Shown here in pieces: positions 55,750-59,442 of a DNA stretch of 64,000 bases; positions within the stretch are counted from its first letter, which is position 1; the number at the start of each line of letters is the position of its first letter. Position numbers and translations under genes: made by a program. The DNA is taken from NCBI RefSeq assembly GCF_021172045.1, contig NZ_CP087164.1, forward strand, positions 3,596,001 to 3,660,000, written 5' to 3'. This stretch comes from Capillimicrobium parvum. GTDB lineage: Bacteria > Actinomycetota > Thermoleophilia > Solirubrobacterales > Solirubrobacteraceae. The notes beneath the pieces are model-generated. The model did no database searches and was not told where the DNA came from. It was given only the letters and a program-made list of their open reading frames with translations.

Positions 55750-56358
55750 TCAGCGCGGCCGCGGCATGTCGAACAGCCGGTCCACGACCGCATAGTCGCC
55801 GAGATAGCCGCAGCGCGCGATCGGCCGCAGCGCCGCCGTGTCGACCTTCCCGTCGGCGACGAAGCGCTCGTCGAGGTGCACCCCGACGACCTGGCCGATG
55901 ACGAGGTGCCGGTCGAGCTCGCGGCCCTCCACGTCGCGCAGCTGGACGGTGTGCACGACGCGGCACTCGAGCGCGCACGGGCTCTCGGCGACGCGCGGCG
56001 GCTCGACGAGCCGCGACGGCGCCATCGTCAACCCGGCGTGGGCGAACTCGTTGACCCCGCGCGGGAGAGTCGCCGACGTCGCGTTCATCGCCTCGCGCAG
56101 ATCCCAGGTCGCCAGGTTCCACACGAAGGCGCCGCCCTCGTCCGCGAACGTCGCGGAGTCCTTGCGGCCGTCGCTCGAGAAGGCGAGCATCGGCGGGCCC
56201 TCGGAGACCGCGTTGAAGAAGCTGTACGGGGCGAGGTTGACCGCGCCGTCCGCGCCGACCGTCGAGACCCAGCCGATGGGCCGCGGGGCGATGATCGCCT
56301 TGAACGGGTCGTGCGGCAGCAGCTCGCGCGGCCGCGCATCCGGCTCGTAGAACAGCAC
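55750..56358 (-). CDS. Flavin reductase family protein (DIM6/NTAB)
   Basis: 202 aa, FMN-binding split barrel. IIAPRPIGWVSTVGADGAVNLAPYSFFNAVSEGPPML and ATFADEGGAFVWNLATWDLREAMN are the family's flavin-binding blocks, and AESPCALECRVVHTVQL the central strand. GTG 56356-56358 shares a base with the mnmA stop (TAGTG), so it is coupled. It could reduce FAD/FMN for the hpaB-type oxygenase two genes upstream, as HpaC does for HpaB (inference from context). Confidence 0.88.
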   Translation of the reverse strand: MLFYEPDARPRELLPHDPFKAIIAPRPIGWVSTVGADGAVNLAPYSFFNAVSEGPPMLAFSSDGRKDSATFADEGGAFVWNLATWDLREAMNATSATLPRGVNEFAHAGLTMAPSRLVEPPRVAESPCALECRVVHTVQLRDVEGRELDRHLVIGQVVGVHLDERFVADGKVDTAALRPIARCGYLGDYAVVDRLFDMPRPR

Positions 56359-57755
56359 TACGCGATCGTCGCGTGCCCGAGCACGCGCTCGCCCGCCATG
56401 AACACCGCGGCCTGCCCGGGCGCCGCGCCGTCGAAGGCCTCCTCGAGCTCGACGACGTCGCCGTCGAGCCGGCACGCCACCGGCCGCGAGCGGTAGCGCA
56501 GCCGGACCGTCTCGACCTCCTCCGCCGGCCGGTTCAGCCGCACGCCGCGCAGGCGCACGCGCGTGGTCGCCAGCTCCTCGCGCGCGCCCACCACCACCGT
56601 GTTCGTCGCCGCGTCCTTCGCGAGCACGTAGCGCGGCTCGCCGCCGCCGAGGCCCAGGCCCTTGCGCTGGCCGACCGTGTACTCCGCGTGGCCGCGATGA
56701 CGCCCGAGCCGGCGGCCGGCGGCGTCGACGATGTCCCCGGGGCGGGCGCGATGGCCGCCGTGGCGGGCGAGGAACGCGGCGCGTCCGGTGCCGGCGAGGA
56801 AGCACAGGTCCTGCGAGTCGGGCTTGCGCGCGACCGGCAGCCCGGCGTCCTCGGCGAGGGTGCGCACCTGCGGCTTGGCCAGCTCGCCGAGCGGGAAGCG
56901 CATCCGGGCCAGCGACGAGCGCGGCACGGCGGCGAGCACGTAGCTCTGGTCCTTGGCCGGGTCGGCCGCGACGCGCAGCAGCCCGTCGCCGTCGAGGCGC
57001 GCGTAGTGGCCGGTCGCGAGGGTCTGCGCCCCCACACGGTCGGCGAAGTCGAGCATGGCGTCCAGGCGCACCGAGCCGTTGCACCGCACGCACGGGTTCG
57101 GCGTCAGCCCGGCCTCGTGGTCGGCGAGCCACGGCTCGACGACCCCCGCGCGGAACTCGTCGCGCAGATCGAGCGTGAAGTGCGCGAGCCCCATCCGGTG
57201 CGCGAGCGCCCGCGCGTGGCGGACCGCGGAGGCCGAGCAGCAGGAGGTCTCGGCGTCGTTCTCGGGCGACGCCCACAGCTCGAGCGTGACGGCCACGACG
57301 TCGCCGCCCGCCGCGCCGCAGCGCAGTGCGGCGACCGCCGAGTCGACGCCGCCGCTCATCGCCACGAGCACGCGCCCGGGGACGGCCGCCGCCGTCCCGT
57401 CGGCGCGCACCGCCGCGCCGAGCGCCCGGTGCAGCGCGTCCGCCGCCAGCTCCGCGGCGTGGACCTTGCCCGGGCTGAGCCCGCCGAGCTCGCCGGCGAT
57501 CGTGGCCGCCGACACCCGGCCGGCGGCCAGGACCGGCGCGCCGCGCACGAGCTCCACGGCCGCCGACGCCGCCGCCTGGGCCGCTCCGCAGCCGGACGCG
57601 TCGCAGCCCGCGTCGGCCACGCGATCGCCCTCGACCGCCACGGACACGCGCACGAGGTCGCCGCACGCCGCGCCGCCCGCGGCGCCGTGCCGCGCGCCCT
57701 CCGGCCGGTGGCCGCGCGGCGCGCGCAGGTACTCCTCGAAGCGCTCGTCGGCCAT
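56358..57755 (-). CDS. mnmA: IscU-like domain fused to tRNA 2-thiouridylase MnmA
   Basis: 465 aa, about 100 longer than MnmA. Residues 1-115 are an IscU/NifU-N scaffold: Cys31-Gly-Asp33, SGCGAAQAAAS with Cys56, and GKVHAAELAADAL where His99 is kept but the next residue, normally Cys, is Ala100. From about 128 it is MnmA: PP-loop SGGVDS (134-139), a Cys pair (172-173), TPNPCVRCN (Cys222, Cys225), ATGHYAR, DSQDLCFLAG (Cys318), and the C-terminal beta barrel. MnmA adds sulfur at C2 of U34 in tRNA Lys/Glu/Gln. The fusion suggests an Fe-S or sulfur hand-off in cis. ATG 57753-57755 is 7 nt behind TACACT. Confidence 0.9.
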   Translation of the reverse strand: MADERFEEYLRAPRGHRPEGARHGAAGGAACGDLVRVSVAVEGDRVADAGCDASGCGAAQAAASAAVELVRGAPVLAAGRVSAATIAGELGGLSPGKVHAAELAADALHRALGAAVRADGTAAAVPGRVLVAMSGGVDSAVAALRCGAAGGDVVAVTLELWASPENDAETSCCSASAVRHARALAHRMGLAHFTLDLRDEFRAGVVEPWLADHEAGLTPNPCVRCNGSVRLDAMLDFADRVGAQTLATGHYARLDGDGLLRVAADPAKDQSYVLAAVPRSSLARMRFPLGELAKPQVRTLAEDAGLPVARKPDSQDLCFLAGTGRAAFLARHGGHRARPGDIVDAAGRRLGRHRGHAEYTVGQRKGLGLGGGEPRYVLAKDAATNTVVVGAREELATTRVRLRGVRLNRPAEEVETVRLRYRSRPVACRLDGDVVELEEAFDGAAPGQAAVFMAGERVLGHATIA

Positions 57756-57762
57756 GCGCCCG

Positions 57763-57768
57763 AGTGTA
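57763..57768 (-). promoter_or_regulatory. -10 hexamer of the iscU-mnmA gene
   Basis: TACACT on the minus strand in the 39-bp gap after the hpaB-type gene, 7 nt before the ATG; gives mnmA a promoter independent of the oxygenase. Confidence 0.5.
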
Positions 57769-57794: not shown

Positions 57795-59375
57795 CTATGC
57801 GGGCGTCTCCGCGATGTAGCCCTCGTGGGCGTCCTGCTCGCGGGCGTACTCCGGCTGGTAGCGCACGTTGGTGTAGTGCGACGCCTTCTCGGACTCCTCG
57901 GCGCGCGCCGCGAGCTCGGCCGTGTCGCCGAAGCCGAGCACCTCGCGCGCCAGCTCGGTCATCGGACCGTCGACCTGGTACTCGGTGCGCTGCATCGTCA
58001 GCAGGTTGATGAGGTACAGGGGCGTGCCGTTGAACTTCTCGAACATCTCGTGGCGCGCGCCCCACTCGGTCAGGTAGCGCTCGCTGATCTGCCGGAAGAT
58101 CGCGATCCGGTCGCGCGCCGTGATCGCCGAGCCCTTCAGCGCGTCCTCGAGCTTGGGCCCGATGTACGGGTCGTCGAGCTCGCGCCGCGTCGGCTGGATC
58201 ACGACGCCACGCCCGCAGAAGTCGATGAGCGTGTTGACCATCTTGTGCTGGTTCTCGAGGTAGTGCGCGCGGCCGAAGTCGACGAACACGTTGTTCGGCT
58301 TGTAGAGGCCGCCGGGGGTCGCGAAGCCCGTCTCCTCGGCGGCGATCATGAACGCGCGGCAGGTCTCGCGGAAGCGGATGAGCTCGGCGAGCTGCGACTG
58401 CACCACCGGGCTGCCGGCGGTGCCGAGCGCCTGCGTGATCAGCAGCCCGAGCCCGACCATCAGCTCGGCGTGGACCGTGTGGCGGATCTGCGTCTCGAGG
58501 TGCACCCAGTCGAACTGGCGCTGCGGGTACCACTTCGCGTGGTCCGGGTTGCCGACGTGCTGGACCTCCCCCCACGGGATGAGGACGTCGTCGAAGTAGA
58601 CCATCCCGTCCAGCTCGTCGCCGATCGTCGACAGCGGGCGGTCGTACGGGTCGGCGTCGGGCGTCGCCCGCGACTCGCGCGCCACGACCGTGACCCCGGG
58701 GGTGCTGAGCGGGACGAGCGCGTAGACCGTCTGCTCCGGCGTCTGCCCCGGGCGCCAGAGGTTGCCGATCAGCAGCTCGTTGACGAACGGGATCGTCGTC
58801 CCGATCGCCTTCCAGCCGCGCACGACGATCCCGTCGTCGTTCTCCTCGACGATCTTCAGCATCGGGGTCTCGGCCATGGCGTCGTCGCGGCCGCGGTCGT
58901 ACTGGACGTCGAGGAACATCGGCGAGATCGCGAGATCCTGCGTCGTCACGCGCTCCCACTGGCGCTCGATGTTGCCGCGCAGGTCGCGCTCCGGCCCCTG
59001 GAAGCGCGAGTTCGCCGCCCAGGGCTCCGGGTCGTCGACCTGCGTGTACATGACGACGTTCATCCCCGCCGGCGGACGGGTGAAGATGCCGCCCTTGAAG
59101 TGGCGGAACCAGAACTCGTGGTAGGCCCGCCGGCGCAGCACGTCCTCCTTGGAGCGCGGCAGGAACCAGTGCAGCGACTGGCGCTCGCCGCGCTCGTCGA
59201 CGAAGGTCAGCACGTCCTCGTGCGCGGTATCGAGGTGCAGGTCGTAGTACTCGGCGATCGCCTGCGCGTAGCCGCGGGTCTTGGGATGCGTCGTGACGTC
59301 CTCGATCAGCTCGCCGCCGACGTACACACGACGGCCGTCGCGCAGCGACGCCAGGTACTGCTCGCCCGTCCTCAT
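57795..59375 (-). CDS. hpaB: 4-hydroxyphenylacetate 3-monooxygenase (HpaB)-type flavin oxygenase
   Basis: 526 aa FADH2-dependent oxygenase of the HpaB/PvcC family, acyl-CoA dehydrogenase fold. MRTGEQYLASLRDGRRVYVGGE is the family N-terminus; WKAIGTTIPFVNELLIGNLW and LIDFCGRGVVIQPTRRELDDPYIGPKL are conserved. The substrate is a phenol of some kind; 4-hydroxyphenylacetate is only the family name. Start ATG 59373-59375 is preferred over one 15 nt upstream because GAGGAGAG lies before it. It follows the STAND/SARP regulator by 67 bp and precedes iscU-mnmA and the flavin reductase. Confidence 0.92.
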   Translation of the reverse strand: MRTGEQYLASLRDGRRVYVGGELIEDVTTHPKTRGYAQAIAEYYDLHLDTAHEDVLTFVDERGERQSLHWFLPRSKEDVLRRRAYHEFWFRHFKGGIFTRPPAGMNVVMYTQVDDPEPWAANSRFQGPERDLRGNIERQWERVTTQDLAISPMFLDVQYDRGRDDAMAETPMLKIVEENDDGIVVRGWKAIGTTIPFVNELLIGNLWRPGQTPEQTVYALVPLSTPGVTVVARESRATPDADPYDRPLSTIGDELDGMVYFDDVLIPWGEVQHVGNPDHAKWYPQRQFDWVHLETQIRHTVHAELMVGLGLLITQALGTAGSPVVQSQLAELIRFRETCRAFMIAAEETGFATPGGLYKPNNVFVDFGRAHYLENQHKMVNTLIDFCGRGVVIQPTRRELDDPYIGPKLEDALKGSAITARDRIAIFRQISERYLTEWGARHEMFEKFNGTPLYLINLLTMQRTEYQVDGPMTELAREVLGFGDTAELAARAEESEKASHYTNVRYQPEYAREQDAHEGYIAETPA

Positions 59376-59380
59376 GCTGG

Positions 59381-59388
59381 CTCTCCTC
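59381..59388 (-). promoter_or_regulatory. Strong ribosome binding site of the hpaB-type gene
   Basis: GAGGAGAG on the minus strand, 5 nt before the ATG; decides the start and is complementary to the pyrimidine tract of the candidate small RNA. Confidence 0.7.
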
Positions 59389-59442
59389 ATGCCGAGACTG
59401 TTCCGGCGGGATGCTGAGCGGCGGCCGTTAACCAGCCCGAAA

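Follow-up and report, generated by a model that had tools for sequence, protein, structure and literature searches.

An IscU-derived domain with four predicted metal ligands is fused to the tRNA thiolase MnmA in Thermoleophilia

Introduction

Why would a tRNA thiolase carry, at its N-terminus, a domain related to iron-sulfur scaffolds? The question is raised by one gene of the window, i.e. the whole stretch of 64,000 nucleotides analysed here, which comes from a genome assembled as one 5.95-Mb contig. In this gene, an IscU/NifU_N-type domain and MnmA are encoded in one frame. The original prediction held that the domain delivers or holds a cluster or sulfur for thiolation of U34 in cis. For MnmA in general, the use of an Fe-S cluster as opposed to persulfide transfer is disputed (PMC11784392). 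The separate parts of the protein and the gene neighbourhood are already known. In open-access full text, we found neither the fused protein, nor the four-ligand rule, nor the repeated decay described below; subscription papers and domain databases were outside the scope of this search.

Results

The fusion gene and its surroundings

The gene is read on the minus strand, from an ATG at 57755 down to 56358 (Table 1). The uninterrupted frame of 465 codons that had been announced, with no strand named, is real. The plus-strand reading of the same interval was rejected, as it is not the gene, and C31, D33, C56, H99, A100, C172/C173, C222/C225 and C318 all stand where they had been placed. An assembly accident is excluded, since nearly all of the relatives searched carry the same full-length fusion. 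The start codon is preceded by a -10-like element of the leaderless type. A TAnnnT motif located 5-9 nt 5' of the start codon was found in 26 out of 36 fusion genes of the window's own order, against a mean of 1.3 and a maximum of 5 in 300 trials with shuffled upstream sequences. The arrangement speaks for the start codon as predicted, and suggests that the fusion gene has its own transcription.

In the window, the gene is flanked with very short gaps by those of a flavin reductase and of an HpaB-type hydroxylase, a large regulator being encoded upstream of hpaB. HpaB and a flavin reductase are the usual halves of a two-component monooxygenase. As a functional clue, these two neighbours were discarded: they were not seen beside the fusion in two congeners (in one of them the contig ends near the gene). 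From sequence reading, the fusion lies elsewhere in the class mostly within a conserved block, hisS-aspS-[iscS]-fusion-alaS-ruvX-mltG-aroE.

Table 1. Position of the fusion gene, its domains, its key residues and its neighbours in the window
Feature	Position	Strand	Remark
Fusion gene, IscU/NifU_N domain + MnmA	56358..57755	-	465 codons + stop
IscU/NifU_N-fold domain, residues 1-119	57399..57755	-	Pfam NifU_N residues 22-113; IscU fold 1-119
C31, predicted metal ligand	57663..57665	-	Invariant in own order; = ISCU2 Cys69, SufU Cys40/41 (SufS persulfide acceptor)
D33, predicted metal ligand	57657..57659	-	Invariant in own order; = ISCU2 Asp71
C56, predicted metal ligand	57588..57590	-	Invariant in own order; = ISCU2 Cys95
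H99, predicted metal ligand	57459..57461	-	Invariant in own order; = ISCU2 His137
A100, place of the third Cys of IscU	57456..57458	-	= ISCU2 Cys138, persulfide acceptor
Linker, residues 120-126	57378..57398	-	AlphaFold2: helix 95-119, MnmA strand from 128
Complete MnmA, residues 127-465	56361..57377	-	NF001138 339.6 bits vs cut-off 284; 2hma Z 36.7
PP-loop SGGVDS, residues 134-139	57339..57356	-	Invariant in fusion alignment
C172-C173 pair	57237..57242	-	Common to MnmAs of the phylum
CxxC, C222 + C225	57081..57092	-	TPNPCVRCN, cysteines invariant; = E. coli MnmA D99, C102
C318	56802..56804	-	Invariant; = E. coli MnmA C199, catalytic Cys or cluster ligand (PMC11784392)
TACACT, -10-like element, leaderless-type start	57763..57768	-	7 nt 5' of ATG
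Flavin reductase	55753-56352	-	Flanks the fusion gene
HpaB-type 4-hydroxyphenylacetate 3-hydroxylase	57795-59390	-	Flanks the fusion gene
Regulator, 1013 aa	59443-62484	-	AAA + Trans_reg_C-like + BTAD domains; upstream of hpaB

A complete MnmA of the CxxC-C subtype

The MnmA part exceeds the cut-offs of the MnmA equivalog NF001138 (Table 1) and of TIGR00420 (281.5 bits vs. 236.95). It consists of a HUP domain, a PRC-barrel-like middle domain and a C-terminal beta-barrel, the three domains matching over residues 128-464, and this modelled remainder of the protein adopts the MnmA fold (2hma, rmsd 2.1 over 335). The fusion is the only MnmA of the genome, the second match to the MnmA HUP domain being GMP synthase. 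Both the CxxC-C pattern (C222, C225 and C318) and the PP-loop with the catalytic Cys pair C225/C318 are present. By this cysteine pattern, the fused MnmA belongs to the CxxC-C subtype (defined in PMC8584467), of which the Thermus thermophilus enzyme was shown to carry a [4Fe-4S] cluster (PMC8584467). The three-Cys active site, the PP-loop and the domain order are shared with the T. thermophilus enzyme (PMC8584467) but, unlike the latter, the fused MnmA is preceded by an IscU-derived domain. The C172/C173 pair, which had been presented as an extra, was misjudged: it occurs in nearly all related MnmAs, stand-alone ones included.

An IscU homologue far under the equivalog cut-offs

A profile search with residues 1-115 alone gave a significant match to PF01592 NifU_N (E = 4e-20, 72.7 bits vs. 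a cut-off of 22), and the same residues match IscU sequences of known structure (E = 8e-16). In the full fusion protein, the NifU_N match extends over residues 22-113 (E = 6.4e-19, 68.8 bits vs. 22). The AlphaFold2 model of the fusion, obtained from a 53-sequence alignment, has a pLDDT of 93.8 and a pTM of 0.92; its N-terminal domain shows the IscU fold (4eb5_C, Z = 19.5, rmsd 2.5 over 133) and its MnmA part superimposes on 2hma with Z = 36.7. Profile and fold thus bear out the proposal of a genuine IscU homologue at the N-terminus, and its ligands are conserved.

This domain is homologous to the IscU/NifU_N scaffolds (PF01592; TIGR03419 NifU_clost, TIGR01999 IscU), with which it shares the fold and the C-D-C-H ligands, and its nearest relatives among them are the NifU of iscS-nifU-mnmA clusters. 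Unlike these scaffolds, it is covalently linked to MnmA, has Ala instead of the third Cys and falls far under the equivalog cut-offs of the models for IscU, NifU and NifU_clost (pairs of score and cut-off: 70.1/187.9, 54.9/273.3 and 54.2/192.4 bits). The SufU equivalog TIGR01994 is not reached either (37.4 bits vs. a cut-off of 92.5). From the five-residue assembly site (Cys, Asp, Cys, His, Cys), C31, D33, C56 and H99 are kept and the third Cys is replaced by A100. The fused domain is therefore unlikely to be a canonical cluster-assembly scaffold.

Distribution and origin of the fusion

The survey of the class (Thermoleophilia) established that the fusion is general there. It is full-length in families f1-f5, f8, f9, f10 and f11, where f1-f4 are the families of the window's own order, and it carries a shortened domain in f7; some f8 members possess a stand-alone CxxC-C MnmA. 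Outside the class, the fusion was found in four families of the same phylum (f22, f53, f15 and f33). Separate iscS, nifU and mnmA genes were observed in f6 (same class) and in f28 and f50 (outside the class). In f6, nifU and mnmA are close or overlapping, and a gene for an Rrf2-type regulator precedes one f6 locus. In f10, f11 and f22, iscS is directly upstream of the fusion. Fused and separate nifU-mnmA are both present in f22 (L122, L127 and L142), differing by a single in-frame stop or frame change; these genomes are drafts, in which sequencing errors are possible.

Scanning species genomes with the unfused NifU gave 80 sampled loci from many phyla, separate iscS-nifU-mnmA genes being kept in Bacillota, Thermodesulfobacteriota and others. 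In most of these loci iscS precedes nifU. The mnmA gene comes after nifU in 33 of the 80, mostly at 150 bases or less, and overlaps the end of nifU in 5 more. The NifU frame lengths (129-143 aa) indicate that these five flagged overlaps are separate frames, and no one-frame fusion beyond the phylum was found among the 80 loci. In Clostridium perfringens, cpe1786-1783 forms an iscR-iscS-iscU-trmU cluster (PMC2940859). A cluster of this kind, alike in gene order and in both proteins, is the likely source of the fusion; the clostridial proteins are however separate, the relatives that we read have the full H-C site, and in the window genome no iscS was found and the gene is located elsewhere. Because the iscS-nifU-mnmA order is present in f6 and in other phyla, the fusion most likely arose by the joining of two neighbours within such a cluster. 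In the AU test, holding all fusion families together gave P = 0.038 and the class plus f22 as one clade was not rejected (P = 0.48), with groups named after viewing the tree and a quick tree with many open forks; a single origin of all fusions is thus disfavoured, but weakly.

Four ligands, His or Cys

Human ISCU2, in its free form, coordinates Fe(II) by Cys69, Asp71, Cys95 and His137 (PMC11021402), and by alignment C31, D33, C56 and H99 are exactly these four ligands. Among the first 120 positions of 32 own-order sequences, only seven are invariant (C31, D33, C56, G92, H99, A107 and A111), and the chance that all four ligands fall within these seven is about 4e-6 (hypergeometric). Position 100, which corresponds to the persulfide acceptor Cys138 of ISCU2, is Ala in 94% of own-order sequences. 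In ISCU2, Cys138 is essential for sulfur transfer, as are Asp71 and Cys95, and the exchange of His137 and Cys138 at the metal drives cluster assembly (PMC11021402).

We then compared all N-terminal domains with an intact C-D-C. His without Cys was found in 56 of them (f1-f5 and f22, one being an unfused f22 NifU), Cys without His in 13 (fused, from f8, f10, f11 and f53), neither residue in none, and both in 5, all of which are unfused operon NifUs; the window's own gene is counted twice here. Every fused domain with C-D-C intact thus has exactly one of His and Cys, whereas unfused operon NifUs normally have both. At least three changes of the His/Cys state are required on the MnmA tree. We read this pattern as selection for exactly four ligands, against the five-residue site.

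A loss of the third Cys caused by the loss of IscS was considered, since the class taken by itself seemed to favour it, and rejected. IscS is strong in f6, f8, f10 and f11, all of which keep the third Cys, but f9 keeps IscS and yet has a degraded site. Moreover, f22 is devoid of the third Cys, even in its unfused copy, despite an iscS directly upstream, so losing IscS does not account for the missing acceptor.

A four-ligand Cys2-Asp-His site could also be redox-sensitive, in which case the fused site might report iron or oxidant status and tune MnmA, so that s2U34 and translation would follow the Fe-S supply. For E. coli MnmA, a regulatory effect of the cluster state was put forward earlier (PMC11784392). 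We regard such a sensor as very improbable: no regulatory feature was found, and for the fused protein the idea is purely speculative.

Lineages that lost the ligands

Some or all of the ligands have disappeared in f7 and f9 (within the class) and in f15 and f33 (outside), where the domain and the CxxC-C of MnmA are kept. The site of f9 reads Cys-Ala-Ser/Ala, and those of f15 and f33 are also degraded. On the tree, the site degenerated at least three times while the fusion stayed. In f7, the N-terminal domain is reduced to about 70 residues with no Cys and is still fused to MnmA. This remnant (L063 and L070-L081; first 70 codons of mnmA) shows 61-76% identity within the family and matches the intact fused NifU domain in profile comparison (probability 91.7%, E = 8e-7). 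Its model has a pLDDT of 94.8, and with VIA-align the best 19 structural alignments are all IscU (Z = 6.8-7.6, values below 8 being weak on their own); Foldseek gave no significant match for it, the best IscU having an E-value of 1.1. We read the f7 remnant as a pruned IscU fold, possibly a pseudo-scaffold. The tree places f7 together with f10 and f11 (support 99), two families that have retained the ligands and an adjacent iscS.

Since the fusion was kept in f7 and f9, where all or most of the ligands are gone, the metal site is not essential to every fused MnmA. Even without metal, the fused domain is thus of some value, the simplest reading being docking or stability. A rival role would be one in which the fold is kept only for its surface (binding of the desulfurase or of tRNA, or folding of MnmA) and the metal, if present, is structural. 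The Cys-free fold remnant of f7 (70 aa) and the repeated degeneration with retention of the fusion fit such a role. For the window's protein we nonetheless hold it to be rather improbable: in the window's own order the four ligands are invariant and the remainder of the domain has drifted, a pattern not expected if only the surface and its structure mattered.

These lineages also bear on cluster delivery. A chaperone in cis would receive from SUF a [2Fe-2S] or [4Fe-4S] cluster, hold it on C31, C56, H99 and D33, and insert it into the CxxC-C of the attached MnmA. In favour of this, IscU proteins act as scaffolds for clusters, the own order shows strict conservation of the ligand set, and the MnmA part is of the type for which a [4Fe-4S] cluster is reported in T. 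thermophilus (PMC8584467). However, where ligands were lost the CxxC-C is intact, so the fused domain is not an obligatory cluster donor for CxxC-C MnmA, and the class also has CxxC-C MnmAs that stand alone (f8). In addition, the Cys equivalent to the acceptor Cys138 of ISCU2 (PMC11021402) is missing, and the full five-residue site is never kept in fused domains, those with an intact C-D-C retaining only four ligands. We consider a cluster chaperone unlikely, and delivering or holding a cluster, as originally predicted, does not stand as the general role of the domain.

Sulfur supply

The only other NifU_N protein of the genome is SufU, encoded after SufS. An IscS query against the window genome returned only SufS-like scores (best E = 2.4e-22), i.e. 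no IscS was found. Among the desulfurase-like proteins found in this genome, SufS alone has a Cys loop; the next Aminotran_5 match (L109) was examined as a second desulfurase and rejected, as it has no Cys-loop cysteine. TusA is also absent from the window genome, while the same search was positive in 11 out of 14 control genomes. More broadly, IscS was not found in 19 out of 20 own-order genomes, nor in 7 out of 9 genomes of f7. The suggestion that the fused domain replaces a TusA-like relay is weakly supported: TusA is absent from 11 of 14 own-order genomes, but it coexists with the fusion in f5, f8 and f9.

In these three families, TusA genes often adjoin the gene of a cysteine desulfurase and are apart from mnmA (G057:C2:312171, G083:C14:54578 and G111:C1:1262690, for instance). 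This suggests that desulfurase and TusA form a unit in another sulfur pathway.

Discussion

The reading that we favour, and that we hold to be quite possible, is that the fused domain is a metal-dependent, desulfurase-docking and sulfur-transfer domain that feeds MnmA in cis, with SufS as donor. In the ancestor, IscU/NifU would have been encoded beside mnmA in an iscS-nifU-mnmA cluster, before being joined to MnmA. After the fusion, the full assembly scaffold would have become a domain with a fixed four-ligand metal site (C31, D33, C56 and H99). Loaded with Zn(II) or Fe(II), this domain would dock a cysteine desulfurase, which here could only be SufS, since neither IscS nor TusA was found in the genome. 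It would accept or position the persulfide sulfur of the desulfurase, probably via C31 as SufU does, and hand it to the C318/CxxC site of MnmA, where the ATP-activated U34 would be thiolated. The sulfur step in cis, as first proposed, is plausible given that IscS and TusA are both missing and that the fused domain is conserved in the class. Alternatively, the SufU of the same genome could serve MnmA in trans.

A close parallel would be Zn-SufU, the sulfurtransferase of Mycobacterium tuberculosis and Bacillus subtilis, with which the fused domain shares the IscU fold and a predicted four-ligand metal site (PMC10216065). Zn-SufU uses a four-ligand site, and M. tuberculosis SufU takes the sulfur of SufS on its first Cys, at the same position as C31 (PMC10216065). 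The fourth ligand is Cys in SufU and His in the fused domain, and SufU occurs as a protein by itself. In the SufU of the window genome, C-D-C is accompanied by Cys, without His. In the YrvO-MnmA system of B. subtilis, as in the fusion, MnmA is supplied without Tus proteins, but by direct transfer from a dedicated desulfurase, without an IscU-like domain (PMC11784392).

More tentatively, fusion with MnmA may have repeatedly locked the IscU scaffold as a four-ligand domain, with His or Cys as the fourth ligand. A SufU-like sulfur module would thus have been re-invented in cis, providing a route to s2U34 without Tus or IscS.

The His-or-Cys exclusivity bears on the mechanism of ISCU2, where His137 and Cys138 alternate at the metal. 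The family forms a natural graded series of one protein, from the full site (separate NifU) to His-only, Cys-only, partly lost and completely lost sites, and comparing its members could separate metal binding, sulfur acceptance and docking. The sulfur route to MnmA outside Tus-bearing organisms is little known, and the fusion has its putative donor domain bound covalently to MnmA. Present across most of the class, it is a natural experiment on the routes by which sulfur or clusters reach a thiolase of the tRNA anticodon.
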